From NCBI RefSeq assembly GCF_026151205.1, contig NC_087072.1, positions 5,008,084 through 5,072,083 on the forward strand: a stretch of DNA of 64,000 bases, in the 5' to 3' direction. This document shows, in pieces, positions 1 through 63,917 of the stretch. A model generated the notes under the pieces. It had not been told where the DNA came from. It made no database searches and saw nothing but the letters and a program-made list of their open reading frames with translations. The DNA comes from Bolinopsis microptera (lineage: Eukaryota; Ctenophora; Tentaculata; Lobata; Bolinopsidae). A program made the position numbers and the translations under genes. Numbering within the stretch: the first letter of the stretch is position 1; every line of letters starts with the position of its first letter.

Positions 1-1540
1 TGTGTGTGTCTGTGTGGTGTCTGTGTGTAATTTCCGAACGGTTAACAAAAAAAACGTTAATAGTTAGGGGACTGAGTTTTTGCGTATAGTTGCGACAAAA
101 CTCTGACGGAAGCCAATAAGCAAATTTTATAAAAATCGGCCGGTGGTAAGTGTTTAATTGATGGTTTTGCTACCACCAAAAATATTTCGGGTTTACATAA
201 ATGGCTGAGAAGAACGGCAAGGGATGTTACGGGGCTAGCTCTCTCTCTGCATATGTAGAGTATATATTACATGGCGTATATATTACATTGGTCATATCAA
301 TACTATAAAACTTTATTAGGGGAGGAGTGCTCAAACGGTCTTTTTGGACTGTAGAGAGAGTTAAACTTTCATACGGACAATGTAATGCATGTTCACAAAT
401 ATGATAGGATGTGTGGTGCATGGTGTTAGGTGTTAATTTCTATTGATTTCATTAAGAATTACTATCTTTTAAAGATTACTATTGGATCACGTGAGGGCAC
501 TTCCGAATTGATTGCTCGCCTAATCCGGGTTTTGACATCAGCGGGTAATTATCTACCCTTTTTAATGCGGCAGGGAGAATCGGCCGTTAGGCCGGGTTAC
601 ACTAGTAATATTTATATAATGAACAAATAAATGTGTTATCGTGTACTTGTATGTAAGATCTTCCAATGGTTTTCCAGATCAGAAAATAGAATCATTCTTT
701 AGACTTTTGGCTATGGATTTTTCCGAGAATATATGCTCTACTTTTTTTTCTTGAAAATAAATTTTTAAAGAATTCTGTAATTTAATCAATATACCTCAGA
801 AACACTCGGCCAGTTTCAGGTACAATTTTGGCGCGGACAAAATTGGTTCTACTCATGTGTAAATTTGAAGAAAAATACACCGATGCTGAATGAAAATCAC
901 AGGGCAGATATCGGCACGAGCCAACTAATTACAAGGAGTCTATCTGAGGCTACTCAGGAGTGATTCGCGGTATAATATCGTGCACTTAACTAATTACAAA
1001 ACTTGTTTAGATGTTCACGTGACATTATGTGGTAATCAGAATAACCACACTCACAGTCGTACGTTGCCCAGGTTTAGGAAGTTTGATAAAAGGTGTGATT
1101 TAATGTTGCGGGACTACAGCAACGGAAACACATAACTTTATCGCAGAACGAAATATGACTATCTTCGAAGTATTTTACAATGCTCCACGCCATCCAACAA
1201 TTTCACTGCCATTTCCTGAATAAGATATCTGAGACATTCTTTCAGACTCTGTATTACAGTTCTAAATTAATGTAAGAGATAAGAACTATTTACATGCCCT
1301 AATAGTGTATATTATATTTTTTTTCTGTATGTGTTGTATATCTTTAAATGATTGTAATTAACATTTTATAGCGTTAATGCAGAGTACTGCCTCGGGGTAG
1401 TGCAATCCATCAATAATAAACTTTCGTATTCACTATCATTTATACGATATAATTCATATTCATTTTTGGTTCATTATCATTATATTGACCCATAGCATGA
1501 GGTCTCGAGTTCTACACGGCAAGTATTTAAATACAAGTGA

Positions 1541-2985
1541 TATAAAAGACTGACTAGACTGAAGTACAGAACTACTGATGAACTACAGGACTACTGACTA
1601 AAACATAACCAGACTACTGACTGAACTACAGACTACTGACTGAACTACAGGACTTCTGACGGAAGTACGACTACTGACTGAAGTTACAGACTACTGATGA
1701 AACTACAGACTTCTGACTTGAAGTACAGACTATGGACGGAAGTACAAGACTACTGACTGAAACTACGATACTGACTGACCTACAGACTACTGATGAATAC
1801 AGACTACTGACTGAAGTACAGACTACTGACTGAAGTACAGACTACTGACTGAACATACCGACTACAGAACTGAACTACAGACTCTGACTGAACTACAGAC
1901 TACTGACTGAACACAGGCTACGACTGAAATACTGTACTGACTAAACTACAGACTACTGCTGACAGTACAGATACTGACTGAAACTACAGACTTCTGACTG
2001 AAGTACAGACTACTGACTGAAGTACAGACTACTGACTGAAGTTACAGACTACTGTCTGAAGTACAGACTACTGACTGAAGTACAGATACTGACTGAACTA
2101 CAGACTACTGAACTGAACTACAGAATACTGATGAACTACAGACTACTGACTGAACTACGACTACTGACTGAACTAAATGCTAACTGACTAAATACTCAAG
2201 ACTACTGATCCTGAAGTACAGACTTACTGACTGAACTACAGACTACTGACTGAAGTACAGAATCACTGACTGAAGTACAGGACTACTGACGAAGTACAGA
2301 CTATGACTGAACTACAGACTACTGACTGAAAGTACTGACTTACTGACTTGAAGTACGACTACTGATGAAGTACAGGACTACTGAAGAAGTACAGACTACT
2401 GGGGACTGAACTACAGACTACTGACTAAACTAAGACTACTGACTGAACTACCAGACTACTGACTGAACTACAGACTACTGATGATAGTACAGACTACTGA
2501 CTGAAGTACAGACTACTGACTGAATACAAGACTACTGACTGAACTACAGACTACTGACTGAAGTACAGCTTACAGACTGGAGTACAGACATACTGATGAA
2601 CTCAGACTACTGATGAACTACAGACTACTGACTGAAGTCAGACTACTGACTGAAGTACAGATACTGTATGAAGTACAGGCACTACTGATCGGAACTACAG
2701 ACTACTGACTGAATACAGGACTAAGACTGAAGTACAGACTATGACTGAAAAGTACAACTACTGACTGAACTACAGGAATTACTGACTGGAACTACAGGAC
2801 TACTGACTGAAGTACAGGACTAATGACTGAAGTACAGACTACTGACTGAAATACAGGACTACTGACTGAACTAAGACTTTACTGACTGAACTTACAGACT
2901 TACTGACTGAAACTACGGGACTACGGACTGAACTCACATGCTACTGACTAAACTACAGACTACTGAACAGAAGTACAGACTACTT
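1541..2985. repeat. 20-bp satellite array (ACTGACTGAAGTACAGACTA), copy 1
   Basis: About 70 tandem units of ACTGACTGAA(G/C)TACAGACTA, with many one-base deletions and insertions. No coding. Confidence 0.92.
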
Positions 2986-3031
2986 TGGGGGGACCGTCAT
3001 CAGTGAGACATATACACCCACGTTTAGTAAC

Positions 3032-3125
3032 CTGGACCACCTCCACATCCTCCACCACATCACCCTTCTTTAGTTGTAGCAGGTGTGCTCCATGGTTCAT
3101 GGCAGTTACAATGTACTCAACTGCA
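3032..3125 (-). CDS. Candidate exon 4 of the same gene (copy 1)
   Basis: Between a GACAG acceptor and CAG/GTTACT the frame reads AVEYIVTAMNHGAHLLQL then KKGDVVEDVEVVQ. Its start phase fits the end of the 5872 exon (AG plus T). The frame also stays open past the donor (VTKRGCICLTDDG), so the exon may be longer. Tandem repeats border it on both sides. A noisy second copy lies at about 10172-10268, between exons 2 and 3, so which copy is used, if any, is unclear. Confidence 0.35.
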
Positions 3126-3133
3126 CTGTCTGC

Positions 3134-3250
3134 GAGTTGTAACACTGTTACATTAACACTGTATACATTTGCCACTGATTTACACTGTTTACATTTACAC
3201 TGTTACATTTACAATGATTTACACTGTTTACATTATGTTTACACTTCTAA
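3134..3250. repeat. Short tandem repeat ACACTGTTACATTT
   Basis: About eight imperfect copies of a 14-16 base unit beside the acceptor of the candidate exon at 3125; repeated at 10285-10390 in copy 2. Confidence 0.7.
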
Positions 3251-3639
3251 CCAATATTCTAGTGAGTAGCTACAGTGAGAAATTGTGTTACCTTATCCAC
3301 AGTAACTTAATTTATCTACTAAAATGAACCTTCTAGATCTAAGACAGGGTACAACTCACCTGTTTTCAGGGTTAATGAGGAGGACTCTGGCGGCTAACTT
3401 GCGTTTAGCAGGTACACCTCCAGTACAATCTGACTGTTGTACATGTCTTCGATGTATTAGGTGTACGGAGCCCTGTTAGGGATCATTCGGGTCAAACAGG
3501 GGATTATTTAGTTGTGAATAAAAAGAAAACATCGCGATAAAATAAACATTAGTAAGTTTTTAAGTAACAAGTAATATATTTAATAGCCAGATGAAGAAAA
3601 TAGCTCCATGGACCAAGTAGAAATAAAGCTCCTCTAGCA

Positions 3640-7144: not shown

Positions 7145-8689
7145 TATTACACAGAATGTCGTGTGTGTCTGTGGGTGTGGTCTGTGTGTGTGTCTGTGTG
7201 TAAATTTCCAACGGATATACAAAAAAAACGGTAATAGTTACGGGACTGGTTTTGCTCGGTATAGTGCCGGACAATCTGACGAAGCCAATAGCATTTTATA
7301 AAAATCGGCCGGTGGTTACGTGGTTTAATTGATGGTTTTGTACACAAAATATGTTACCTACTAAAAAGGCTGAGAAGAACGCAAGAGTTACGGGGCTAGC
7401 TCCTCTCTGCATATGTAGCTAATATATTACATGGCCGGTATATTACATGGTCATATAATACTATAACTTATTAGGGGAGGGTGTGCTCAAAACGGTCTGT
7501 TTGGACTGTAAGACGAGTTCATACTTTCCTACGACAATGTAATGCATGTTCACAAATATGATAGGCTGGTGTGGTTGCATGGTGTAGGTAATTTCTATTG
7601 ATTATTTCATTAAGAATACATCTTTTAAGATATCTTGGATACGTGAGGCACTCCCGAATAGAATTGCTCGGCCAATCGGGTATTTTGACTCAGCGGGTAA
7701 TTACTCCTACCCTTTTTAACTGCGGCAGTGACATCCGGCCGTAGGCCGGGTACCTAGTAATAATCTATAATTAACAATAAATGTGTTAGTATACCTTGTA
7801 TGTAAGATCTTCAATGGGTTGTTCCCAGATCAGAAATAGAATCATCTTTAGACTTTTTTGGCTATGGATTTTTCGAGAATATAAGCTCTACTTTTTCTTT
7901 CTGAAAAAATACAATTTTTAGAATTCTGTAAGTTAATCAATATCCACACTCAGAAACACGGCCAGTTTCAGGTAATTTTGGCCAGCCGGACAAAATTGGT
8001 TCTACTCATGTGTAATTTGAAGAAAAATACACCGATGCTGAATGAAAATCAACAGCCAGATTCGACGAGCATAAAATTTACAAAGAGTCTATCTGATGGC
8101 ATACTCAGGAGTGATTTCGGTGTTTAATATCGTGTAAACTAATTACAACTGTTTAGATGTTCACGTGACCATATTTGGTAAACAGAATACCCCACCTCCA
8201 CAGTGCTACGTTGCCCAGGTTTAGGAAGTGTGATAAAAGGTTTGTTAAAGTTGCGGGAAGCTCAGCAACGAAACACAAAACTTTTATCGCAGAACGAAAT
8301 ATGACTATCTTCGAGGTATTTTACATCTGCATACACGCCATCTTCAACAATTTCACAGCCATGTTCCTGATACAATATCTGTGACATTCTTTCAGACTCT
8401 GTATTACTGTTCTAAATTAATGTAAGAGATAAGCACTATTTTCATTCCCTATAGTGTTATTATATTTATGTATGTGTGTATATCTTTAATTGATTGTAAT
8501 TAAACAATTTTAAGGCGTTAATGCAGAGTACTTGCCTCGGGGTAGTGCAATCCATCAATAACATAAAAACTTTCGTATTAATATCATTTATACGCATATA
8601 ATCATATTCATTTTTGTTCATTATCATTCATATTGACCATAGCATGAGAGGTCTCGAGGTTCACTACACGGCATTTTTATACAAGTGTA

Positions 8690-10135
8690 TATAAAGACTG
8701 GACTTGACTGAAGTATCAGACTACTGCCTGAACTACAGACTATGACTAAACTAGCAGACTACTGACTGAACATACACGACTACTGACTGAACTACAGACT
8801 ACTGACTGAAGTACAGGCTACTGACTGAAGTACAGATATGACTGAACTACTGACTAATGACTGAAGTACGGACTACGGACTGAAGTACAGACTACTGACT
8901 GAACCTTCAGACTACTGACTGAACTACAGATACTGATGAAGTACAGACTACTGGATGAATGTACGACTACTGACTGAAGTACAGACTACTGAATGAACTA
9001 CAGACTACGGATGAACTACAGTTACTACTGACTGAACTACGGACTACTGACTGAATACAGTATACTGGGACTGAAACTACTTGCTCAGACTAAACTACAG
9101 ACTATGACTGAAGTACAGACTACTGACTGAACTACAGACTGCTGACTGAAGTCGACTACTGACTGAAGTCAAGTACCGACTACTGACTGAAAGTACAGAT
9201 ACCTGACTGAAGTACAGACTACTGACTGAAGTACAGACTACTCGACTGAAACTACAGCTACTGGATGAACTACAGACTACTGACTGAATACAGACTACTG
9301 ACTGAAATACAGGACTACGGATGAACTACTTGCTTACTGACTAAACTACAGACTACTGACTGAAGTACAGACTACTGACTGAATACAGATACTGACTGAA
9401 GTACAGACTACTGACTGAAGTACCAGGACTACAGACCTGAAGTAACAGACTACTGACTGAACTACTGACTACTGACTGAAGTACAGACTATGACTGAGTA
9501 CAGACTACTGACTGAAGTTACAGACTACTGACTGAAGTACAGACTACTGACTGAACTCAGACTACTGACTAAACAACAGACTACTGACTGGAACTACAGA
9601 ACCTTTGATGAACTACAGACTACTAACTGAAGTCAGACTACTGCACTGAAGTACAGAACTACTGAGGAACTACCTAGACTACTGACTGAACTACAGACTA
9701 CTGACTGAAGTACAGATATGACTGGAGTACAGGACTACAGACCTGAACTACAGACTACTGACTGATACTACAGACTACTGACTGTAAAAAGTACCGACTA
9801 CTGATGAGTCACAGACTACTGACTGAAGTACAGACTACTGATGTACTACAGTACTGACTGAACTACAGACAACTGATGAAGTACAGACTACTGACTGAAG
9901 TACAGACTACTGACTGAACTCACAGACTACTGACTGAACTTACTTCAGACTACTGGGACTGATAGTACAGACTTACTGACTCTGATGTACAGACTACTGA
10001 CTGAACTACAGACTACTGACTGAACTACAGGACTACTGACTGAACTACAGACTACTGATGAACTACAGACTACTGGATGAACTACATGCTTACTGAACTA
10101 ATCTACAGACTACTGACTGAAGTACAGACTATGGA
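8690..10135. repeat. 20-bp satellite array, copy 2
   Basis: Same unit and almost the same length as the array at 1541-2985, with a different pattern of small indels. Confidence 0.92.
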
Positions 10136-10171
10136 CCGTCATCAAGTGAGACTATACACCTCCACGTTTAG

Positions 10172-10268
10172 TAACCCTGACCACTCCACACTCTCCACCA
10201 CATCACCCTTCTCTTTAGTTGGTAGCCAGGGTGTCTCCATGGTTACATGCAGTCATGTACTCAACAGC
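10172..10268 (-). pseudogene. Second copy of the AVEYIVTAM exon
   Basis: This matches 3032-3125 with several single-base insertions and deletions that break the frame. It lies at the same place in the duplicated segment, just after the 20-bp repeat array. The frame damage may be sequencing error rather than real decay. Confidence 0.45.
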
Positions 10269-11309
10269 ACTGTCTGAGCGTAGTAACACTGTTACATTTA
10301 ACACTGTTACATTTGCACTGATTTACACTGATACGTTACACTGTTACATTTACAATGATTCTACACTGTTACATTATTCGTTTACAATTCTAACCAAATA
10401 TTCTCAGTGAGTAGCTACAGTAGAGAATTGTTGTACCTAATCACACAGTAAACCTTAATTTATCTACTAAAATGAACCTATAGCATCATTACAAGACAGG
10501 GTACAACTAACTTGTTTTCAGGGTAATGAGGAGGACTCTGCGGCTTAACTTGCGTTGAGCAGGGTACACTCCAGTTACACTCTTACTGTTGTACATGTCC
10601 TTCGATGTATTCGATTTACGGAGCCCTGTTAGGGATATTCAGGGTCAACACGGGGATTATTTAGTTGTGAATAAAAAGGAAACATCGCGATAAAATAACA
10701 CATAGTAAGTTTTTAAGTAAACAAGTCAATATATTTAATAGCCAGGGAAGAAGAAATATCCTCCATGGACCATACGTAGAAATAAAGCTCCTCTCGCATA
10801 GGAAGACCGGATATCGGCTAATCGGTTCCAGCCGGATATTCTATATTTTGGCTTTTAATCGCCGGTTTCCGGTTCCGGTTTCGGTACGGTTTCCAAAAAA
10901 TTTGCCGGTTATTCAACAGGACAGTTCTTTTTTAAAGTGTTCCTTAAATGTATAATATTTCTTGTCAAAATCTTACTCAGGGGCTCATCCAGTCATTGCT
11001 CTCAGTGACCGGTAAATTCCACGCCTCCACGTGATCGCCTGTTATCAGTCAGCACGAATGTTCAAGACCCCCGTTGATGTGAGATTTTTGAGTGGTTAGA
11101 GTCAAAACAGCTACCATTAATGCTATACTTATGAGGCATTTCAAAGCAGAGCCAGGAGGAGGGTCCCTGCTTTATTGTGTAAACAACCCGTTGCTAACCT
11201 CCCCTTACATGTCAGATTAAAACAAAGGCCATCCATGCCATTAAAAAAACTTGCGACATTATCCTCGGTTATATTGACGCCACGAATTATAAGAGTGCAC
11301 TGGCTGCTG

Positions 11310-24702: not shown

Positions 24703-27224
24703 GGGGGGGGGGTGACATGTCTCCAATGTCTCCAATGTCTTTTGTCTTTTTTGAAAAGATAGGGTGCAGAGACATGTCCTGGAGACATTGGAGACATTGG
24801 AGACACAGCTTTTGGAGACATTGGAGACATTGGAGACATTGGGGACATAAGAGACATTGGAGACAAAGCTTTTGGAGACATTGGAGACATTGGAGACACT
24901 GGAGACGTAGTTGTATGATTGGAGAAGGAGGAGGATCTAGGAGGAGGATGACCCAGGAGGAGGACTCAGGAGGAGAAGGAGGAGGATGAGGACTCAGGAG
25001 GAGGACTCAGGAAGAGGACTGAGGAGGACTGAGAAGGAGGAGGACTGAGGAGTACTGAGGAGGATGGCTAAGGAGGATGGCTGAGGAGGATGGCTGAGGA
25101 GGATGGCTGAGGAGGATGGCTGAGGAGGATGACTGAGGAGGAGGACCTAGGAGGAGGAGGACCCAAGAGGAGGAGGACCCAGGAGGAGGACTCAGGAGGA
25201 GGAGGAGGAGGACTCAGGAAGAGGACTGAGGAGGACAGAGAAGGAGGAAAACTGAGGAGTACTGAGGAGGATGGCTGAGGAGGATGACTGAGGAGGATGA
25301 CTGATAGGGAGGAGGAGGAGAAGAAGGACTGAGGAGAAGGAGAAGGAGGAAGACCTAGGAGGATGAGGACCCAGGAGGAGGAATCAGGAGGAAGAGGAGG
25401 AGGAGGACTCAGGAGGACTGAAAAGGAAGAGGACTGAGGAGAACTGAGGAGGAGGAGGACTGAATAGGAGGAGGAGGAGGGGGACTGGGGGAGGACTGAG
25501 GATGAAGAAGACTGACGAGAAGGATGAGGAGGAGGACTGAGGAGGAGGACTGAGGAGGATGAAGAGGAGGAAGACCTAGGAGGAGGACTCAGGAAGAGGA
25601 CTGAGGAGGACAGAGAAGGAGGAGGACTGAGGAGTACTGAGGAGGATGGCTGAATAGGATGACTGAGGAGGATGACTGAGAGGGAGGAGGAGGAGAAAAA
25701 TGACTGAGAAGAAGGAGAAGGAGGAGGACCTAGGAGGATAAGGACCCAGGAGGAGGACTCAGGAGGAAGAGGAGGAGGAGGACTCAGGAGGACTGAAAAG
25801 GAAGAGGACTGAGGAGAACTGAGGAGGAGGAGGACTGAATAGGAGGAGGAGGAGGAGGGGGACTGGGGAGGACTGAGGATGAAGAAAACTGACGAGAAGG
25901 ATGAGGAGGAGGACTGAGGACTGAGGAGGATGAAGAGGAGGAAGACCCAGGAGGAGGAGGACTGAGGAGGAGGATGAGGACTAAGGAGGACTGAGGAGGA
26001 TGGCTGAGGAGAATGGCTGAGGAGGATAACTGAGAGGGAGGAGGAGGAGGAAGAGGACTGAGGAGGAGGAGTAGGACTGAGGAGGAGAAGGAGGAGGACC
26101 TAGGAGGAGGAGGACCCAGAAGGAGGACTCAGGAGGAGGAGAACTCAGGAAGAGGACTCAGGAAGACTGAGAAGGAGGAGGACTGAGGAGTACTGAAGAG
26201 GATGACTGAGGAGGAGGAGCAGGATGAGAAGGACTGAGGAGGAGAAGGAGAAGGTGGAGGAACTAGGAGGAGGATGAACCAGGAGGAGGACTCAGGAGGA
26301 AGAGGAGGAGGACTCAGGAGGAGGACTTAGGAGGAATGAGAAGGAGGAGGACTGAATAGGAAGAGGAGGAGGAAGACTGAATAGGAGGAGGAGGAGGGGG
26401 ACTGGGGAGGACTGAGGAGGAGGAGGACTGACGAGAAGGATGAGGAGGAGGACTGAGGACTGAGGAGGAAGAGGAGGAGGATGAAGAGGACCCAGGAGGA
26501 GGAGGACTGAAGAGGAGGACTGAGGATGAGGACTGAGGAGGAGGAGGAGGACTGAGGAGATTGGCTGAGGAGGATGACTGACAGGGAGGAGGAGGAGGAC
26601 TGAGGAGGAGGAGGAGGAGGAGGATTGAGGAGGACTGATGATTGAGGAGGAAGAGGAGGAGGATGAAGAGGAGGAGGACCCAGGAGGAGGAGGACCCAGG
26701 AAGTCCGGAGGAGGACCCAGGAGGAGGACCCAGGAGGAGGACCCAGGTCCCAGGAGGAGGACTCAGGAGGAGGAGGAGAACGACTGAGGAGGACTGAGGA
26801 GGACTGAGGAGGAGGAGGAGGAGGAGGAGGAGGAGGAGGAGGAGGAGGAGGAGGAGGAGGAGGAGGAGGAGGAGGAGGAGGAGGAGGAGGAGGAGGAGGA
26901 GGAGGAGGAGGAGGAGGAGGAGGAGGAGTCTCCAAAAGCTGTGTCTCCAATGTCTCCAATGCCCCTAATATCCATTTCATGTCCCTAATGTCCCCAATGT
27001 CTCCAATGTCCCCAATGTCCCCAATGTCCCCAATGTCTCCAATGTCTCCAAAAGCTGTGTCTCTAATGTCCCTAATGTCCCCAATGTCCCCAATGTCTCC
27101 AATGTCTCCAAAAGCTGTGTCTCCAATGTCTCCAATGTCTCCAATGTCTCCAATGTCTTTGTCTTTTTCGAAAAGATAAGGTGCGGGAGACATTGGAGAC
27201 ATGTCACCCCCCCCCCCCCCCCCC
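24703..27224. mobile_element. 2.5-kb GGA/GGAGACATT satellite-filled mobile element
   Basis: The left end is a G run then TGACATGTCTCCAATGTCTCC; the right end is its inverted counterpart ending in a C run. TTTATA flanks both sides (24697-24702, 27225-27230), consistent with a target duplication. Inside each end are GGAGACATT nonamers, and a GTCTTTTTTGAAAAGATAGGG block occurs near both ends. The central 2 kb is a nearly pure purine strand of GGA, GGACTGA and GGACCCA repeats ending in an uninterrupted (GGA)n run of more than 100 bases (26808-26928). Long open frames here (poly-Pro, poly-Ser, GDIGDI) are artefacts of the repeat. Confidence 0.75.
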
Positions 27225-30700: not shown

Positions 30701-33700
30701 CAGGCCCATTAAGAGAGATACCCAATAAAGTAGATCATTCTCCAATTTTTTTAGGTGTTTCTGGACACAAAGTGAGTCATCTTGCTGCTCATTACATGAG
30801 TTTTTAGGACCTTTCTAGTTAACAGTCCAATAGCCCATTTGTTAATATTGTCATTGTTCCCTCGGCAAAAATCCGTTTTTCAGCCACATTTCTGAGGGTT
30901 TATATTGTTTCATAAGTTGTATATAAATGTGACCATTATGTACATTTTAGTGTATCAGAATAGTCTTTACACTAAAATAGTTAAGTACTCCCAAAATAAT
31001 CTTATGTTTTAAAATTTTATCTTCTTTGATCCGTCACATTGAATTTGTGAATTTCTGTCGTAATATTATGAGGTTATCCTTTCTAGTCAGCACAGAGAAG
31101 AAACCCTTAAAAATTACTAATATTTCACAATTTTGCATATCTTTCGAATATTAACACATCCGGCCGTACCATCAAGTTCATTTCTCGATAAAAAATGAAA
31201 ACTTATACAATATACATGATGTAAAGAAATTAAATTATATACGTGAAGTAAGTACAAATGTTAATTCATCTCTTGAGAAAGACCAGCCGATATATAATAT
31301 CAACCCAGGCTATTTAAAATAGATATTGCCTTCAAAATTATTGCGATAGATAACCTTAGTTATCTACATCAATCTTAAGATCTCACAATATTCTGTAGAG
31401 TTTCAGCTGGTTACTTAAGTTATCTACATCAATCTTAAGATCTCACAATATTCTGTAGAGTTTCAGCTGGTTACTTAAGTTAGCTACATTAATCTTAAGT
31501 TCTCACAATATTCTGTAGAGTTTCAGCTGGTTACTTAAGTTAGCTACATTAATCTTAAGATCTCACAATATTCTGTAGAGTTTCAGCTGGTTACTTAAGT
31601 TAGCTACATTAATCTTAAGATCTCACAATATTCCTGATATACGAGCAGGTGCTTATAATTGACAACATGAAACCAAGGTTGGACCTATTTTGCAAAGGAT
31701 TGGACCAATATTATCCCTTACAATGCACCGTGACCTATGAAGTCACTGAATTTGTATGTGGATATGTGGCTACTGGCTATGTATGTGGCTAATGTTAGTA
31801 TATCCGCATTCAACTTTATATTATGGAGGACGCGAAATGGAGTGTTCAAGCCCCAACTAGGTGGTTTGAATTTTGTTTTATTTTCAAAGGAGAACTAATA
31901 ATAGTCCGGAGGATGGGCATACCGATAGTCTTATATAATACGAAACTGTTTTACCCATTACCAGCCAGATCTGCCCAATGACAACTTACCTGAAACTTCC
32001 TGCCAGAGCAACAATTAACCAAATTACCTCGAAAATTCATCGCGTTTTTTGATAGATTAGTCCATTTTCGTGCCAGGGTGGACTAATCATTATTTTGTCA
32101 GAGTAACAATATATGATAAATTTGTTCTCAAACTAAGCTAGTAAACAACGGACCTGATAAGGGTGAGGCTCCGATAAGACTCTGCCTGTCCAACTTTTCT
32201 GATAACATTTTAGCAGTAAACTTCTCTTCAGCATCACATCCCTGAAAATTATGAGAGTGTAATAGGGGATCATTGAGAGTAAGAAAGCCATCTTTAGTGT
32301 CAAATTAGTTACATCTATAGTGTCAACAAACGAAAGCATCAACAGAAAGTTAGTTAACAATACTGGAAAGTTGGAAAGGTGTGAGTAGAGTGCTTACCTT
32401 GCCGTACCAGATGTATGTCTTATACTGTCCCAGGTAAACGAAAGAGTCATTACTGTTCAAACTTTCTGCTTTACAGAAAACCTCTATACTCTTCACGTAC
32501 TCGTCTATACACTTTATGTGGAAGAGGCGGGATTTTGTGCCTGAAATTGGGAAGGAGTTTAGCTTGGATAAATAATATTATGTTTAATCAAATGGTTGAA
32601 TTATAGAAATGATAATAATATGCCGATTTCTGACGTATCCTTGATAATACATCTATCTCGACTAGCACTATACACGAACTTGATTAGATAAGTTTGAGAA
32701 AATGTAACAGAAAGTTACGAAGCAGTAAATGCGGTTAAATAACTCACTTTCGTGTCCGTTCGTCTCTTCTGATGAGGTCTGCTTAAACCCACTATCAACA
32801 CCACCCTGAAGTATAGTGATCCTCCTCCCGAAACATCTGAGGAAATGGAGAGGTTCCTTGCCTTGTACTACCCTTACCATCTGAGATGACCAGCCCACCT
32901 CACTGTCAATCTTTGTAGCGTGCAGTGCTGCTGCTCCCCTCTCATCTGTCGTACTGTGAGAACCCTGATAGTGGAGTGAAAGTGAGAGTAAGAACCCTGA
33001 TAGTGGGGTGAGAGTCCTGATAGTGGAGTGAGAGTGAGAGTAAGAACCCGATAGTGGGGTGAGAGTCCTGATAGTGGAGTGAGAACCCTGATAGTGGAGT
33101 AAGAGTCCTGAACCCTGATAGTGAAGTGAGAGTGAGAGTCCTGATAGTGAAGTGAGAGTGAGAGTCTTGATTCCTGATAGTGGAGTGAGGGTGAGAGTCC
33201 TGATAGTGGAGTGAGAGTGAGAGTGAGAACCCTGATAGTGGAGTGAGAGTCCTGATAGTGGAGTGAGAGTCCTGATAGTGGAGTGAGAACCTGGATAGTG
33301 GAGTGAGAACCCTGATAGTGGAGTAAGAGTCCTGAAGGGGGGAATGCAACGTCAATTAATGTCAATTAATGTCAATTAATGTCAATTAATGTCAATTAAT
33401 GTCAATGTCAGTTTTGCAAAATTTTGGAATACTGACATTAATTGACACGATATTTTTCGACCAGAGATTATGTAGTTCTACCATATTTTTAGCACTTTAG
33501 AACGTTTATATCATCAATTTATTCACTACTATCACATATGGAAATGTGAAATGTGAAAAAAATTCAGATCATTAAACAATAAAACTAAAATAATACGGTT
33601 TTCCGAAATTTAATTTTCTTAAATGGGCGTGGCCATCCAAGGGCGTGGTTCTCAACATCATCAGAACTTAAAACCAACATTAAACGAAATGCCTTCATGA

Positions 33701-36700
33701 CATTTATATTTGAATAACGAATCTTAAACAGCTAACATTACTCATTCATACTAAAAAAGCCGATTCTAGATATTTTACCTGCACTGTATAAGAAACCAAT
33801 AAAATATGGGCGTGGCCGGTGGGGACCGAAGATGGAAGAGTTGGAAGCTGAAATTTTTTTGGTGGTCTTTAAACCTAAGGATCAACAGATAAGAACATAC
33901 TCATAATTATTCAAGGACATTTTGTTTTTTTGAACCGGTCTAACTTACATAGACGTGAATATCTTGAATATTTATCGAATAATGATAATCTCAAATTTCA
34001 AGACAAATTAATGTCAATTAATGTCAATTAATGTCAATTAATGTCAATTAATGTCAATTAATGTCAATTAATGTCAATGTCAGTTTGGGGTTTTCATGGA
34101 ATACTGACATTAATTGACGTTGCATTCCCCCCGTCCTGAACCCTGATAGTGAAGTGAGAGTGAGAGTCCTGATAGTGAAGTGAGAGTGAGAGTCTTGATT
34201 CCTGATAGTGGAGTGAGGGTGAGAGTCCTGATAGTGGAGTGAGAGTGAGAGTGCGAACCCTGATAGTGGAGTGAGAGTCCTGATAGTGGAGTCAAGGTGA
34301 GAGTCCTGATAGTGGAATAAGAGTGAGAGTCCTGAACCCTGATAGTGGACTGTGGAGTGAGAGTCCTGAACCCTGATAGTGGAGTGAGAGTCCTGAATCC
34401 TGATAGTGGAGTGAGGGTGAGAGTCCTGATAATGGAATGAGGATGAAAACACTCAGAGAACTTACCAGCCAGAAGTAGATAAAAAAACTCTCGTGATTTC
34501 TGCCAGCCTGAATGTACGTGTAGAGGACTATGTAACTGTCTCCGTCCCAGAATATTCCGTACGTTGATTCGTCCACCTCTTCTAGCTCGAAATTCTCAAT
34601 TCGCCAGATCTAGTGGAATATAATTTTTCTCAAGCTTAATCAACTCTTTTGAAGTTTCACGGGTGATTTTTAAAGCGAATTGAGTGTTTTTATACCTTAC
34701 AAATTGTGATAAAATTATTTTTTACCTTGAGTTTTCCGCTTCCATCATCCTTAACGTCATCGTCCTTTTTCTCCGCAGCCCTCTGCTGTTTGAATAATCC
34801 GCTCAGGTCCACAGTAGGATCCTTAATCTTCTCAGGAATGACAGCATTCTTGGATATCTGTCTCTCGATAACAGGTCTGGGCCAGTTGGAGAAGCAGCTC
34901 ATAAAGAGGTTATCTTCGGCTCCTTCCACCACTCTACACAGCGGTGTCCAGGATGGGTAACCCTTGTCGTTGATGAACTTCTGGGCGTGCATGAAGGCTT
35001 GGCTCCGCTCTTGTTGTGTTGCTCCTTTTCCTATCCAGGCGTAGACTCCGGAGTTACCCATATCCAGTATAAAGGCGTCATCTGAGCAGAGGTGCGCGTG
35101 GTCGAGGGGAGCTTTTCCCACTGGTGATATCTCTATTTCTCCGGATTCATCACACACTCTGATAATATCATTACGCTATCACAACAGTAAATTTAACCGA
35201 CAAAGGCTTAATTACTCACAAATTGTGAGTCACAATATACTCAATTGGCCGAGATTTGCTTTAAAATTACTGCAAGTGCTCTTAGGCTGTAAGTAATTAG
35301 GGATATAATATGTTGATCTAAAATCTAAAAAAAGGAGGACGAAGAAAGATTTTAATGTTTTAATGATGGCTATATTTACTGGTAAAGAGCTATTTCTCTA
35401 GGAGCCGCTTCAGCCATCTCATCGTCTCCGCCCTCCTCTGCTGATTTGATTGTCACTTTCTCTCCGTCTTCTCGGTTTAACTGAGGGAGGGGAATCAATG
35501 TTAACTAGACGTCATGATCTCATCGTGAAGTGGGAATTTGTCAGAACAATAGGCATTGGACTGTGAAATCTACTTTGAGAACGTCCTGATATATGGTACA
35601 GATTACTATACAATGCATGAAGTAGTATTAGATGCTATTATTGGAACCTGGTCGTAGAACTTCTCTTGGAGTCGTGGATCATCAGGGGTAGCAAGAACCA
35701 TCGTAGCTCTGCCCTGTTTCTCCTCGTCCTTGATCTTCCTTGCAAACTCCATACCCTGATAATGATGTTATACATTACTTTCGTCAGAAAACTTTACAAT
35801 TTCTCGATAATCAGAAAATTACAGCAAAGTGTATTGACGTGACGTCGTTTCAAGAGGGAGACTTGTAATAGGTATTTGTAATGTCTGCAGATAGATTTGT
35901 CAATGAACATTATCCGTTTACTGGACAATACAGAAGGAGTAAAAACACTTTATTATTACAATTGCACATTCTGGAACATTCCACCAAAGTAACTCCCACA
36001 GTCCAAACGTACAAACCTTGATTTTCTCGAGTCTGGAACAATCAGTTCCGATCCAGCACCAAACAGTGTCCTTACAATCCAGCACGAACACATCTCCCTC
36101 GTTCAGAGATCTCCATGATACTTCTGCCTGGGTTATCCGCACTTTCCTCCGACCCTTGATGTGGTACAGCTTCTTACGGAACTCTAACTTGCTGATATCT
36201 ACAAACCCTGAGTCTACCCCACCCTCTAAGTATCTGGAAGATATATCGTCATTATAAACTGTTCTGGTTTATGTAATTAGGAAAGAGCATGTTTTATGAA
36301 ACCACCAAGTCGTATCGGAAAAGGCAGCGAATCGCAGTACTGAATGACAAGGAAGGATGATTGGCTAGTTAAATGTTAAACAATAAGTTATAAAGACTTT
36401 GGAGAAACTCACTGTATTCCTTGTTTGAAGATTGATTGGAACCTGCTGGACTCGTATTCCTGGACCTCTCTGTGTTGGATTGGACCTCCTCCCAACGAGT
36501 CGTCCAGCTCGCAGGATTTGATAGCTGCACATCCCGCTTCATCCTGAACAAAATAACCTAACAACCCTGTATTGACAGGTCTTAGTAACCTAGCAATCCT
36601 GTATTGACTGGTCTTAGTAACCTAGCAACCCTGTATTGACAGGTCTTAGTAAATTAGCAACCCTGTATTGACTGGTCTTAGTAACCTAGCAACCCTGTAT

Positions 36701-39700
36701 TGACATTTGACAGGTCTTAGTAATCTAGCAACCCTGTATTGACAGGTCTTAGTAACCTAGCAATCCTGTATTGACAGGTCTTAGTAACCTAGCAACCCTG
36801 TATTGACAGGTCTTAGTAACTTAGCAACCCTGTATTGACAGGTCTTAGTAACCTAGCAACCCTGTATTGACAGGTCTTAGTAACCTAGCAACCCTGACTT
36901 ATACGGTAAGAGTTAAAATTAGAGCTATGAATAGCTCTGTTAGTAAGTTAGTAACTGCGACAAATTAAAAGTGAGGTTAAGTGGCCTTACAACACCTGAT
37001 AGAGGTCCTATACAATATTTAGGCTGTATGTTTATAGTTCTTGGCAATTATTGTATGGTAGTTTTACCACAGATCCTAAACTGATCTTTAATAATGGGAA
37101 AGCTAATGAATTGTGATTATTTGTCCTCAGTAAAAGCGTGACTTGTTACAGATCAAAAACAGTGGCAATTTCAATTGGTAAAGATTTTTGTTAATAGCCA
37201 TTTTATACGGTATAAATGAAAAATTGCCATTTATCAAATTTATCTGTTCTTTGCAAACACCCAACCTTCGGATGTTTACTGTGAAATTTATCTGTGTATC
37301 TTCATGAGGAAATCAATTTATCTTCCTCTGGAGACTAAGCACCAATACCCTGATAATCTAATAATAATATAGGAATGAACGTGACAGGGACGTAGCCAGG
37401 ATTTTTCTTTGAGGGGGGCTGTCGGCGAGCGAAGCGAGCCGACGCGTCCAATCAAGCTGCGCAGCGAGCGAAGCGAGCAAGCTGTGGCAGGGGTCTGGGG
37501 GCGCAGCCCCCAGCGGGGTCCAGGGGCGGAGCCCCTTGGCGGGGGCTAGGGGGGCGCAGCCCCCCGGAAATTTTTTGCGAAACAGGGTGTTTTAGACGAC
37601 ATTTGGCATTAAAGAAATTTGTAGGACAGCAATAAACTGGGATTGAAAAGAATCAAGTACTCACGTAAATTTGGTAACTTCACAACAGCAATCTGCATTC
37701 TCCAATCAGAATTTACGACTTTCTCAGGCCTCATTGTCTTAAGATTTTTACATTTCCTACGGTCTAGGGGACACTATTGACTATAATTGTAGAAGTCTTC
37801 TAGAATGTTTGCTTGGATTTAATGACATATATTTACTAATCCACAGTTCAAATCTTTGACTGACTGCAGTCATAAACACAGCCCAGTTACCAGGCGACCA
37901 TGGGGACTAGGGGGCTTATCTTTTTTCTGGGGTTCGATTTTTTCCGGGGGGGGCTGCCGCCCCCCTAGCCCCCCCCCTGGCTACGTGCCTGGAACGTGAA
38001 CTAATAACCATACTACTGTAATTAACACACAGATCCTTGACATGTCCCGAAATGTGAGCCTGAAGCGGGGCTTGATGTGGGAGACGGAACCAGATTGATG
38101 GTGACTGATGACAGATATTTGTTGCTGTGGAGCTGTAAAGTTAGATATCTTGTTCGGGGTGTGGGTGTGTATCATGTTGACTGGTTATTCCTTTAATAAG
38201 TAGAGTGTGCAACTCTTTCATCTTGCGAGTTATGGAGATTTGATCACTGATTCTAGAAAACTGGGAGACGCGTGGGTTTATAAAAGTGAACATTGAAAGT
38301 AATATTTACATATTTACATTACATAGATCTGAAATAGACATTCAAGCTGTTCTTATAATACCAACAATAATTTAAAGTATATTATAACCACTTGCTACTA
38401 AGCAGCTAAGACTGTTCGCTCAATAAATCATGAAGCAAATCTTTAAAATCTGATTCAAGGATCATTGATGCAGTTAACAAATTACTTGATTGAATTTTAA
38501 TATCATACTATATTGACTCACAGTTTAAGACCCTCATGATCATTATATTATTAGGAAAGTTTGACAAAAATAATCACTTTTTCACAATTTGACTACGACA
38601 GATTGTCGTGGAAAGTACTTTGGTCCGGAAAAACGTTGTGAGATAAGCATATCATATTTCGCGATTCGCACACATTAGACCTATGTTCAACTCATTCACT
38701 TTCAATCCGTGATATTTGAAGCATTTAGAAGAAGCTGAAGGCAGCGAGGCTAGCGAGTTCTTTTTAATTGCATTTTGCGTGCAGGATACCGGTGACTAGC
38801 AAGCATAATCTAAAATTTAAGATATACGGATACCAAATCAATTAATATTAAGGCCGGTGTACGTGTTATTCGGAAAATGAAGAGGAGGCGGACCATTTCT
38901 TGCTGACTGGGGTCTCAATAAGGATTAAGGATATAACAATTAAATTTGTTAACTTTCATCTCATATAGACACTACTAATTGTATCGTTTAATAAACGTAG
39001 TAAATGTTAGTTTATCGTATACTCTGCAGTCTGCATACGGGCTAAAGTTAATCTTTATAAATAATTTACATTATGAGAAACTATTATTGGAAGCTTTCTT
39101 AAGTAAAGAGAAACTTTTCCTCTCCAACTGAAAGATACCGTCAAAATTCACATTTCTGATTTATTCACGGCAATCTAATAAATTTTCAGGGAAAAGAATC
39201 TACCGTTCGAGGTTTATAAGGTGGCAACGAAAAACAAATAGTTTAGAATTTATTCGAAAAGAATTTTGAATGGAAAGTGGATTGAGAGGACCTTTACTGA
39301 TAGTTGAAATTCGACATATGACGTCATCTAGCGTCATCTAGCGTCATCTAGCGTCAAATATCGCCAGATGATGATAGATGACGCTGGCGTCATCTAGCGT
39401 CATCTAGCGTCATCTAGCGTCATCTATCATCATCTGGCGATATTTGACGCTAGATGACGCTAGATGACGCTAGATGACGTCATATGTCGAATTTCAACTA
39501 TCAGTAAAGGTCCGATTGAGAATGTTTTGACTAATCGAGATGATAAATTGTTTGAGGGTGGTCGCGGTATGTCGTGGAAGCAGCCAGATAGTTATTTTCT
39601 GTCGAATGTCCTGTAAAGTCGTCAGATGATACTCTAAGCGGGCCAGTTTTATAAACTAAAACCATATGATAACTTCATAAATCCTAACTGATTTCATACT

Positions 39701-58512: not shown

Positions 58513-59166
58513 TACTTACCCCTGGTAACAGTAACTCACCCCTGCACTGGTAACAGTAACTCACACCTGGTAACAGTAACTTATCCCTGGTAACAGTAAC
58601 TTACCCCTGGTAACAGTAACTCACCCCCGGTAACAGTAACTCACCCCTGGTAACAGTAACTCACCCCCGGTAACAGTAACTCACCCCCGGTAACAGTAAC
58701 TCACCCCTGGTAACTGTAACTCACCCCTGGTAACAGTAACTCACCCCCGGTAACAGTAACTCACCCCTGGTAACAGTAACTCACCCCTGGCCTTAGTAAG
58801 AGTAACTCAACCCTGGTAACTGTAACTCACCCCTGGTAACAGTAACTCACCCCTGGTAACAGTAACTTACCCCTGGTAACAGTAACTCACCCCTGGCCTT
58901 AGTAAGAGTAACTCAACCCTGGTAACTGTAACTCACCCCTGGTAACAGTAACTTACCACTGGTAATAGTAACTTACTCCTGCCCCTGGTAACAGTAACTT
59001 ATCGCTAGTAAGAGTAACTCACCCCTGGTAACTCTAACTCACCCCTGGTAACAGTAACTTACCCCTGGTAATAGTAACTTACTCCTGCCCCTGGTAACAG
59101 TAACTTACCCCTGGTAACAGTAACTCACCCCTGGTAACAGTAACTTACCCCTGGTAACAGTAAATC
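58513..59166. repeat. 20-bp minisatellite of splice-donor-like units
   Basis: About 33 copies, reading on the minus strand CAGGGGT(G/A)AGTTACTGTTAC. Each carries a consensus donor (GGTAAGT or GGTGAGT). The array lies about 115 bases beyond the donor of the minus-strand exon ending at 59282. Confidence 0.9.
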
Positions 59167-59281
59167 CCCCTTGGTGAACGCTACTTACCGTTATTTAGTA
59201 GTTATTCATATTATTATTAGTAACATATTAACCATAATATAACCATATTAGTTAATATTAACTTGGTTAACCATAACTTAC

Positions 59282-60971: not shown

Positions 60972-63917
60972 ATGTTAAAGGACTGTCTTAAGGAAGCATA
61001 TGCAAATGCAAACTTGGTCACTTTTCATGATCTGGAAATCAATCGGTTAAGTCTTCTGCGGAAATGCCTGTTGACCAAGCGCCCTGTTCAATCCTTAAGG
61101 GCCAGTGGCTTGAAAGCTCTCCCTGAGGAACAGGCTCGTGCGCTCCTCCAGGAGGTGGAAACAAAAGCAACCCTCCGTGCCATCGAGAACAAGTCAAGGC
61201 AGATTAACATCTTGAAGAAACAGATTGCTGATATTCAGAGAGATCATCCTGACTCTCCTGAACTTATCAAAGATAGCAAGCTGCTTCACATCCAACAGAA
61301 GAAGCTTTTAAAGAAGATGAAATTTTTAGAGGAGTGTGATGGCACTAAATTTTCAGAATGGAAGCCTAAGAAGAAGGTAGTAGCAGTTTCAGTGAATCAG
61401 TTTACAAGGAAGGTCACAGCTAAGAAGCTCAAGAGAAAGCTCAAAGCAAAAGCCAGGAAGAACAGGAAGAAAGAGCAGGCAATGAGGAAGAAAGCCAAGG
61501 AAGCTCTTGAGAGAAATCTTGTTGTTAACCTGACAGACATTGATATTCCGGATTATAGCATTGCGGTCCTTTCGTATGGTCCTGGATGGATACCCTGCCC
61601 GGATTTTGATGAGATGCAGTTCAAAGTAGATGGGTACAATGCTGCCAACAAACAAGCATGGAAAGCTGTTTTTAAGAACTCAGCACGGGATAACGAAGTT
61701 CCTATGGAGCTACTGAAGAAACCAGTAACAGCTCCTTGTACTTCTTTTGAAGACCCAGCCATCAAGTCTGCAAAAGACAACATTGTCAATTTTGTAGACA
61801 ACTTCAAGCCCAGAAAACTTGAATCTAATATGAACCGCTATGAGAGTGAAGGGTATATGTGGTTGAAGAAGGCTGTCAAGGATGGCTTAATAGCCATAAC
61901 ATCGGCTGATAAGGGCGGTGCGATAATCATTGTCACCCCTCAGATAATCAAGGATATCACTTCTGCCAAAGTTGAGGACCCTTTGAGATACAGACCTTTA
62001 CAAACTGATCCTACTGGATCTTTGAGAGGGAGGTTGTTAGAGCTGTGGTCATCTGGTTTGGAGCGGAAGTATGTTAGTGGTGAACAGTCTAAGTGTGTGG
62101 TTGGTTTGATTCAGAAGTCTGATCAGGACACTCTTTCACAGAGCACTTCAGATCTAGTCAAGCCCGATATTCCGTATGGTTACCCATTACTGAAAATTCA
62201 CAAGCTGACTGAGACTGAAATTAGAGAGAAAAAGATTCCACCCAGTCGATTCGTGACTGATCTCTCTAGAGGAGTAACTGCAAGATCAGATAAGTTTGTT
62301 GTTTGGAAGTGGTTGGGACCTCTTGCCAGAGATTACTGTATAGATCTTGTTAAAGATTCAACTGCAGCTCTCATAAAACTCGAGGAATTGGCAGCTTCCG
62401 GACAAGTAGTCGATACTTGGATCAGCTTCAGTATTGATATTGTTTCTCTATACGATTCTCTGCAACATAGCTTGGTGATGTCAGCCTTAGATGATGCTAT
62501 GGAGTTGTGTAGACCAGATTGGTCTGAGGAGTTCAGGACTTGGCTGAAGGGACTGATACAGCTTAGTTTTGATTCGGCAGTCTTGAAGAATGCAGACAAC
62601 TGGTATGAGGTCGTTAACGGTGTACCCACTGGAGGTATCAATTCAGTGGATTGCGGTAACATTGCTTTGTTCTTTGTCCTAAAGAGTCTGGTTTACGACC
62701 CGGTTGTTAGACCAGAGGAGCTCAAGAACCTTGATCGGTTTGTGGATGATATTTCGGGCCAAGGTATGTGGAGAGGTTCTATGATTGGTTTTGAAGAATG
62801 GGTAGGGTCATTACGCAGTAAGATGGTTGATAACTATGGCTTAGATATTACATACGAAGTGAAACCAATCACGGAGTTCACTCAGTTCCTGGACATTCAG
62901 TACAAGTTTGTTGGAGGGAGACTCACAACAGATCTGTTTAGGAAACCTACTGACGCCAACAGGTATCTTGAATTCTCAAGTTTCCATCCACGACATACCT
63001 TCCGGAGTATAGTCTTTTCACAGGCACTTCGATACAGAAGGATAATCAATGATGACGTCTTACTGGATGAGAGATTGGCAGAGCTTCAGTTGTTTTTTGA
63101 GCGGTCTTCATATCCTACTGATATGGTGAGAGAGGTCATCAGTGATGTCAGATCGATACCAAGAACTTTACAGTACAAGGCAAAGGATCAGGGTCCCCCT
63201 TCTTTCACACCATGGATTGTTACATTCGGTGCGGGCTATGAGGAAACCAAGGAAAAGGCTAAAGAGGCCAGTAACATCATCTCAAATAGCCGTACATGGA
63301 GCAGTGAGAACCCTGAGAGGATCCCTAAACTCCAAGTGGTGACCAGGCGAGCCCCTAACTTAAAGGACACTTTATTCAAGAGAAAGAAGCTTGCCTTAGG
63401 TTCAGAGTCAAGAACAACTGACCCATGCACCAAACCTGGTGAGAAGAAGAAAGGCAGACCCTGCCAAACTTGTCACCTTGTTAGTGGCAATTCCATGGTC
63501 TCCAATAATGGACACTCAGTCAGAACTCAAGGTGGTAACTGTAAGACACGCAACATTGTGTACGGCGCGACGTGCAAACTTTGTACTGTTAATAACTTAT
63601 ACGTGGGAAAAACAGTCACCAGCCTCAGCCAACGTGTGAATGGTCATCGCAGTAAATATTATGAGATTTTAGAGGCGAGTAGTAAGGGGAATGTTGAGAG
63701 CCACAGAGATTTTGATGACGAGAATGTTTTAGGAGCACATCTTTTTTCAGTTCATAATTTGAGGGAGAGATCTGATTTCAATGAAAGTTTCCATTTTGAT
63801 ATTTTGTGTTCTACATCCCCAGATAATATTAGAAAGTCAGAACAGTTTTATATTAACAAATTGAAGACACTTTATCCGTTTGGCCTGAACAATGTGAATT
63901 CCGTTTCTGGAAGCTAA
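60972..63917 (+). CDS. Penelope-like element: reverse transcriptase with GIY-YIG nuclease
   Basis: This is one uninterrupted 981-codon frame encoding the replication protein of a Penelope-like retroelement. In order: a Lys-rich basic region (about 130-180); the family-typical SADKGGAIIIV (about 311); RT motif A SIDIVSLYDSL (about 486); motif B GVPTGGINS (about 549); catalytic motif C RFVDDI (about 589); FLDIQ (about 638); the thumb motif KPTDANRYLEFSSFHP (about 657); a CxxC zinc-type linker (CQTCH, about 831); and a GIY-YIG nuclease with IVYGATCKLC, LYVGKT and RVNGH (about 860-890). Families of this kind prime from cut or telomeric DNA. SLYDS and GVPTGG differ from the more usual SLYTNI and GxPMGS. 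The frame looks intact and could be active. I saw no pseudo-LTR or hammerhead ribozyme within the window, whose right edge lies only 83 bases past the stop. Confidence 0.93.
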   Translation: MLKDCLKEAYANANLVTFHDLEINRLSLLRKCLLTKRPVQSLRASGLKALPEEQARALLQEVETKATLRAIENKSRQINILKKQIADIQRDHPDSPELIKDSKLLHIQQKKLLKKMKFLEECDGTKFSEWKPKKKVVAVSVNQFTRKVTAKKLKRKLKAKARKNRKKEQAMRKKAKEALERNLVVNLTDIDIPDYSIAVLSYGPGWIPCPDFDEMQFKVDGYNAANKQAWKAVFKNSARDNEVPMELLKKPVTAPCTSFEDPAIKSAKDNIVNFVDNFKPRKLESNMNRYESEGYMWLKKAVKDGLIAITSADKGGAIIIVTPQIIKDITSAKVEDPLRYRPLQTDPTGSLRGRLLELWSSGLERKYVSGEQSKCVVGLIQKSDQDTLSQSTSDLVKPDIPYGYPLLKIHKLTETEIREKKIPPSRFVTDLSRGVTARSDKFVVWKWLGPLARDYCIDLVKDSTAALIKLEELAASGQVVDTWISFSIDIVSLYDSLQHSLVMSALDDAMELCRPDWSEEFRTWLKGLIQLSFDSAVLKNADNWYEVVNGVPTGGINSVDCGNIALFFVLKSLVYDPVVRPEELKNLDRFVDDISGQGMWRGSMIGFEEWVGSLRSKMVDNYGLDITYEVKPITEFTQFLDIQYKFVGGRLTTDLFRKPTDANRYLEFSSFHPRHTFRSIVFSQALRYRRIINDDVLLDERLAELQLFFERSSYPTDMVREVISDVRSIPRTLQYKAKDQGPPSFTPWIVTFGAGYEETKEKAKEASNIISNSRTWSSENPERIPKLQVVTRRAPNLKDTLFKRKKLALGSESRTTDPCTKPGEKKKGRPCQTCHLVSGNSMVSNNGHSVRTQGGNCKTRNIVYGATCKLCTVNNLYVGKTVTSLSQRVNGHRSKYYEILEASSKGNVESHRDFDDENVLGAHLFSVHNLRERSDFNESFHFDILCSTSPDNIRKSEQFYINKLKTLYPFGLNNVNSVSGS

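Follow-up and report, generated by a model that had tools for sequence, protein, structure and literature searches.

In this work, we analyzed a stretch of 64,000 nucleotides of the ctenophore Bolinopsis microptera (the window: positions 5008084-5072083 of contig NC_087072.1, here C1, which has 26,206,493 bases) and, within it, intron 10 of a villin gene encoded on the minus strand. This intron is very probably a mirage minisatellite, a tandem array whose unit spans an intron-exon boundary and keeps its splice signal; it would have grown from the intron's own 3' splice junction and is most likely functionless. Genome-wide searches covered 264.65 Mb in 232 contigs, among which COX1 was not found; exons and introns are numbered as in an initial annotation of this DNA, and junctions are marked by a slash. 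The features on which the analysis is based are collected in Table 1.

The acceptor-copy array of villin intron 10

The sequence identifies the gene as villin, the name that the initial annotation had given it: a Pfam search of the window exons returned gelsolin repeats and one villin headpiece exon, and the closest match in the PDB is villin 9jus (E 2.2e-40 from a single exon). The match of exon 10 lies under the Pfam Gelsolin cut-off of 21 bits. Intron 10 starts at 34465 (TTC TGG CTG/GTAAGT) and ends at 32965 (CACTATCAG/GGT TCT CAC AGT), in phase 0, and measures 1501 bp, or 705 bp without an insert of 796 bp. When exons 10 and 11 are joined at the last acceptor, the protein aligns to 9jus without interruption at the join (aligned 9jus residues IYYWLGRHSTSDERG; a gap of 2 residues precedes the join by a few positions). 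The last acceptor is therefore the one yielding conserved villin, in agreement with the initial annotation, which had taken the last unit for the real acceptor of exon 11.

Cut behind every TATC(C)AG and behind the broken form TATCG, the intron falls into 26 tandem units plus the inserted element. All units but one, which lacks AG, keep an intact TATC(C)AG acceptor (25/26, the real one included). Their lengths are 19, 20, 21, 26, 27, 32, 33 and 34 bases, one unit being split by the insert, and the tandem-repeat finder places the array edge near the donor at 34441. The description of the intron as tandem copies of its own 3' splice site was thus confirmed with corrected numbers: about 30 units had been announced, of 20 or 26 bases, and the array does fill nearly the whole intron besides the insert, its distance from the donor being 24 bases and not about 20.

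The basic unit, of 20 bp, corresponds to the junction itself, from position -11 to +9. The real acceptor reads TATCAG/GGTTCTCAC, and the 3' part of the array continues across the junction as far as exon base 9. Three exact copies of the junction 20-mer are found within intron 10, none of which extends into exon base 10. The 25 continuations past the unit ends comprise three identical to the first nine exon bases, three with a one-base difference, 11 reading GACTCTCAC, which matches the start of exon 11 at 7/9 positions, and eight with a poorer fit or with extra or missing bases. Copying of the first exon bases is real, as annotated, although only 3/25 exact copies hardly amount to the "many" units that had been claimed. 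As controls for coincidence, a check which the initial annotation had itself proposed, we used 3882 YAG (pyrimidine-AG) sites elsewhere in the window and the nine other villin exon starts. One YAG site scored 9/9 and three more 8/9, the observed mean identity of 6.4 of the exon continuation was reached by 1 of the 3882 sites, and none of the nine exon starts exceeded 5/9, so that the junction bases in the units go beyond chance. With at most one mismatch, the unit occurs at 20 places in the genome, every one inside villin intron 10, and a dispersed introner-like element was rejected on these grounds, the MITE-like insert being a distinct matter. Altogether, the array consists of minisatellite-size tandem units, with a unit that spans the boundary, includes exon bases and retains the splice signal, and it fits the sequence definition of a mirage minisatellite, a kind that the initial annotation had named neither directly nor through its precedents.

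Table 1. Position of the array, its surroundings and two further minisatellites (window coordinates unless a contig is given)
Feature	Position	Strand	Evidence
Villin exon 10 (gelsolin repeat, first half; end ..IYFWL, phase 0)	34466..34609	-	Pfam Gelsolin 13.6 bits
Donor of intron 10, GTAAGTTCT	34457..34465	-	sequence
5' array part: 11 TATCAG-ended units and the start of the insert-split unit	34133..34441	-	
MITE-like insert, 796 bp, inverted ends GGGGGGAATGCAACGTCAATTAATGTC	33337..34132	-	8-bp target duplication TTCAGGAC on both sides
3' array part: 14 intact acceptors (real one included) and 1 AG-less unit	32956..33336	-	
Template 20-mer: TCCACTATCAG (last 11 intron bases) and GGTTCTCAC (first 9 exon bases)	32956..32975	-	
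Villin exon 11, 217 nt, followed by donor GTGAGTTAT	32748..32964	-	Pfam Gelsolin 22.6 bits
Second villin minisatellite, 32 bp x10.5, sense unit ..CCTGTCAATACAGGG..	36554..36896	-	tandem-repeat finding
L048 donor-side array	C1:11775600-11778300; array 1145-1741 of the reverse complement (about C1:11776560-11777160)	-	sequence

Direction of copying and growth of the array

A paralogue on contig C2 (L013) has an intron at the identical codon boundary (YYWI/GTGAGT.. tatttaaccag/GGAGCTCACAGTACG), of about 126 bp in a count by eye and without array. Its exon starts with GGAGCTCACAGTACG, against GGTTCTCACAGTACG in villin; 13 of the first 15 exon bases are identical, as are 7/9 in the exon half of the template 20-mer. 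Since these bases are present where the array is absent, they are older than the array, and the array copied them. This supports the original interpretation of the units as copies of the junction, the nearest relative compared being this array-free paralogue with its near-equal exon start; the test of direction is a paralogue comparison inside one genome. The ancestral intron was presumably short, as in the paralogue, and a very short intron with a single acceptor is plausible. The first unit beside the donor seems, by eye, the most diverged.

The insert resembles a miniature inverted-repeat transposable element (MITE). Its end word has 248 matches genome-wide, with many opposed pairs about 740-930 bp apart among the matches listed; inside, the element holds AATTAATGTC repeats. 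After omission of the insert and of one copy of its target duplication, an exact segmental duplication of 156 bp becomes visible within the array, its copies lying 224 bases apart. As one copy spans the insertion point and the target duplication flanks the insert, the latter must have entered an already existing array.

These observations point to the following course of events. A 20-bp stretch over the intron 10/exon 11 junction (11 intron and 9 exon bases) underwent tandem duplication, as the sequence shows, and further local and segmental duplication, seen in the 156-bp repeat, expanded the array until it filled the intron, probably through replication slippage or unequal exchange. The dispersed MITE-like element inserted later, as shown by its target duplication. 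The array is probably tolerated because splicing would settle on the exon-proximal acceptor, probably through exon definition across the 217-nt exon 11.

Consequences for splicing

The dozens of near-identical acceptors described in the initial annotation hold good as a statement about sequence (25 were found), as does the expectation that choosing an upstream one would usually shift the frame. Of these upstream acceptors, 24 in number, 17 would put exon 11 out of frame and four are in phase but meet a stop; the remaining three (33232, 33115 and 33088) would add 89, 50 and 41 residues, respectively, exon 11 being open throughout. If occasionally used, the upstream copies would thus mostly give frameshifted or stop-containing mRNA. 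Inspection of the unit ends and of branch-point-like motifs revealed no local feature marking the last acceptor. Its choice is likely decided by how near it lies to exon 11, a short exon, and to the donor of that exon.

Other arrays at splice junctions

A scan for tandem TTCAGG gave 16 loci among the matches listed, one of them villin intron 10. Seven of the 15 others were examined, in a non-random choice that favored AG/GT-like units: one holds a junction copy, two touch or nearly touch a predicted junction and four do neither. The first of these (L048), which lies in a CFAP73-like gene, is by its sequence a clear mirage on the donor side. Its coding exon reads ..NNQLANLQ/GTAGGTTC, the unit comprises the last 24 exon and first 8 intron bases, and 17 further CAG/GTAGG donor copies occur in exact 32-base steps; the 24-mer has six exact copies, and the longest contiguous exon stretch copied is 27 bases. 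The two-exon protein aligns to CFAP73 without gaps (E 0.0012, with the search threshold relaxed to E 1), and DUF4094, under its cut-off, is the only Pfam match. In L044, just 1-2 bases separate the array from a predicted acceptor, but its copies lack AG, and the predicted exon has no Pfam support; in L050, on the strand opposite the scanned TTCAGG, the array starts inside a predicted donor, about 14 bases in. Farther off are the array of L045, about 130 bases ahead of a predicted acceptor (by eye), and a second array in L049, about 60 bases ahead of a predicted acceptor on the opposite strand; no contact between array and exon was seen in L046 and L047.

We also inspected 14 gelsolin-repeat loci, found by protein and not by arrays, two of which are the villin gene of the window. 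In L011 (C1:1041676-1044843, gene on the minus strand), a 31-bp x4.9 array at 2281-2433 stands flush with an acceptor; the copies carry a polypyrimidine tract and end in CCCCC, without AG, and the exon past them (GKHSTQDEYG..) scores 14.4 bits for Gelsolin, under the cut-off. A 39-bp x9.6 array lies about 59 bases ahead of a predicted acceptor in L020, no exon was seen downstream of the array in L022, and further loci hold shorter arrays. The villin gene itself contains a second minisatellite, which stops short of the acceptor TTTTGTTCAG/GATGAAG (exon start 36543, intron end 36544) by about 11 bases and is acceptor-like but no junction copy. Two of the 14 villin acceptors, which were placed by open frame and consensus (10 listed, 4 by eye), have an array within 11 bases. 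Elsewhere in the window, on the minus strand at 58514-59175, a 20-bp x31.6 array has a unit, GTAAGTTACTGTTACCAGGG, that reads like a donor followed by an acceptor, so that the array resembles a string of miniature introns; a predicted donor, TTGG/GTAAGTTA, precedes it by about 105 bases.

Genome-wide, 4526 matches were obtained for three tandem TTCAGG words with 10-30 bases between them, and 745 when the word was reversed. This excess proves little, because TTCAGG alone already outnumbers its reverse by a factor of about 1.7 (120 versus 72 in 200 kb). For three tandem GTAAGT words, the counts were 11926 and, with the word reversed, 2431. The control is better here, with single words at 135 versus 146 in 200 kb, but the matches overlap and sit in large arrays (5 loci among the matches listed), so that the excess favors genome-wide junction arrays in a suggestive way only. 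Two blocks of 100 kb yielded 16 arrays, and none of the three examined closely holds a junction copy. One of these three is an in-frame coding repeat (EVPAPVA; C1:10001948-10002011, minus strand) that ends 2 bases before a likely donor.

Other repeats and open frames

Some further features were recorded. GGA-rich arrays of about 2 kb, at 24780-27158 of the window, C1:10054613-10059519 and C1:10066259-10068951, are flanked on both sides by opposed short repeats (GGAGACA and TGTCTCC; GGACATTGGC and GTCCGCC) and are perhaps one element family. An open frame of 981 amino acids (60972-63917, plus strand) has no significant Pfam match; by eye, we take it to resemble a Penelope-like retroelement. Five open frames of 104 codons, 802-843 bases apart (C2:8061718-8065360, minus strand), form a tandem repeat of longer period. 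A segment pair at 1350-3300 and 8500-10400 of the window has a 19-bp minisatellite beside an open frame (2960-3202), with many single-base insertions and deletions (indels) between the copies, as if one copy were poorly polished.

Discussion

Taken together, these results point towards an array that grew out of the splice junction of intron 10. The opposite direction, in which an ordinary intronic minisatellite spread into exon 11 and overwrote its first codons, would also account for the nine bases common to array and exon, and the second codon does vary (S here, A in the paralogue, R in 9jus). The exon of the array-free paralogue, however, starts with GGAGCTCACAGTACG against GGTTCTCACAGTACG here, and G-x-HST is common to villin 9jus, so that most of these exon bases are ancestral and we consider this direction unlikely. 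Slightly less likely still is a functional array, whose acceptors would form a bank for tuning villin output or for producing isoforms with added residues. The 372-bp 3' part is stop-free in all three sense frames, as opposed to 18-21 stops per frame on the other strand, and the three clean in-frame acceptors adding 41, 50 or 89 residues fit such a role; but a pyrimidine-rich unit may by itself explain the stop-free frames, 21/24 upstream acceptors would lead to a frameshift or a stop, and the paralogue manages without any array.

We give a very low probability to a long-read misassembly that made or multiplied the copies. The window does hold the noisy duplicated stretch mentioned above (1.3-3.3 kb and 8.5-10.4 kb), whose copies differ by numerous small indels; the units of intron 10, by contrast, are set apart by many substitutions and make up a higher-order block, into which an element has cleanly inserted with a target duplication. 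Hardly credible, finally, is the gain of intron 10 itself by the tandem duplication. Such duplication is a reported source of new introns in the accessible part of one study (PMC4974935), but it was rejected here, as the array-free intron of L013 at the same position shows that the intron is older than the array. Whereas a new intron is born in the case described there, an older one was enlarged in villin; both alter gene structure.

Several points weigh against a functionless mirage as the explanation of intron 10. The length of the array is known from one assembly, and the noisy copy pair elsewhere in the window indicates that this assembly is not flawless. The comparison was made within one genome, and several other arrays inspected contain no junction copy. 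Besides, the units are near-identical in their last 11 bases, and nothing local therefore singles out the last copy; branch-point-like yTnAy motifs lie upstream of each unit, at least one at 12-20 bases, with similar spacing. Both the choice of the acceptor and the harmlessness of the array are presumed from the DNA sequence.

Competing 3' splice sites are also found in NAGNAG and other tandem acceptors, where they stand a few bases apart before one exon and are not minisatellite copies. Villin intron 10 likewise has several competing 3' splice sites ahead of one exon, but spaced by 19-34 bases (insert aside) instead of about 3, and a NAGNAG acceptor was rejected. In human IFI6, a donor-side minisatellite that repeats the splice site reportedly lies at an exon-intron junction, and its copies serve in a real transcript; villin is an acceptor-side case, and it is L048 that provides a donor-side one here. 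The closest likeness is to the mirage minisatellites of amphioxus, which the accessible parts of two reports (PMC3087553, PMC3902484) describe in Adh3, in the globins BflGb6 and BflGb9, in TnC and in PGBD5, with units of 10-72 bp in Adh3 and 150-160 bp in the globins. As in villin, a tandem unit lies over an intron-exon boundary and many units carry a splice signal; as in this genome, both 5' and 3' boundaries are affected. According to the same excerpts, the authors conclude from reverse-transcription PCR and the Adh3 data that mirages leave regular splicing undisturbed, and two haplotypes of BflGb6 carry 6 and 3 units, respectively. Undisturbed splicing and an unstable length, varying among haplotypes or tissues, are reported for amphioxus mirages, whereas the villin array is known from the sequence of one assembly. 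It further differs in its ctenophore host and in that 25 acceptors occupy practically the whole intron. In human segmental duplications, introns elongated by tandem repeats are described in the accessible part of one paper (PMC2812944), which concerns repeats in general and not copies of a splice junction as in villin. No report of a ctenophore mirage was found in the open-licence literature, which excludes most subscription papers. What is new here is the ctenophore lineage, an intron taken over almost wholly by copies of its acceptor, and the presence of donor- and acceptor-side cases in one genome.

The finding extends the so-called mirages outside the cephalochordates. The acceptor-side and the donor-side case in one genome suggest that splice junctions can seed tandem repeats, and some other cases suggest a genome prone to arrays at donor and acceptor junctions. 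It is tempting to speculate, though we hold it to be somewhat less than an even chance, that splice junctions in ctenophores of this kind seed minisatellites genome-wide, short donor- and acceptor-spanning sequences being time and again expanded into long arrays, by a process ancient or recurrent in animals and not an oddity of amphioxus. If so, introns would grow from their own splice sites and the spliceosome would routinely pick one among tens of copies. Villin intron 10 is a natural experiment in splice-site competition, in which 25 near-equal acceptors stand before one exon and the last alone would give the normal protein.

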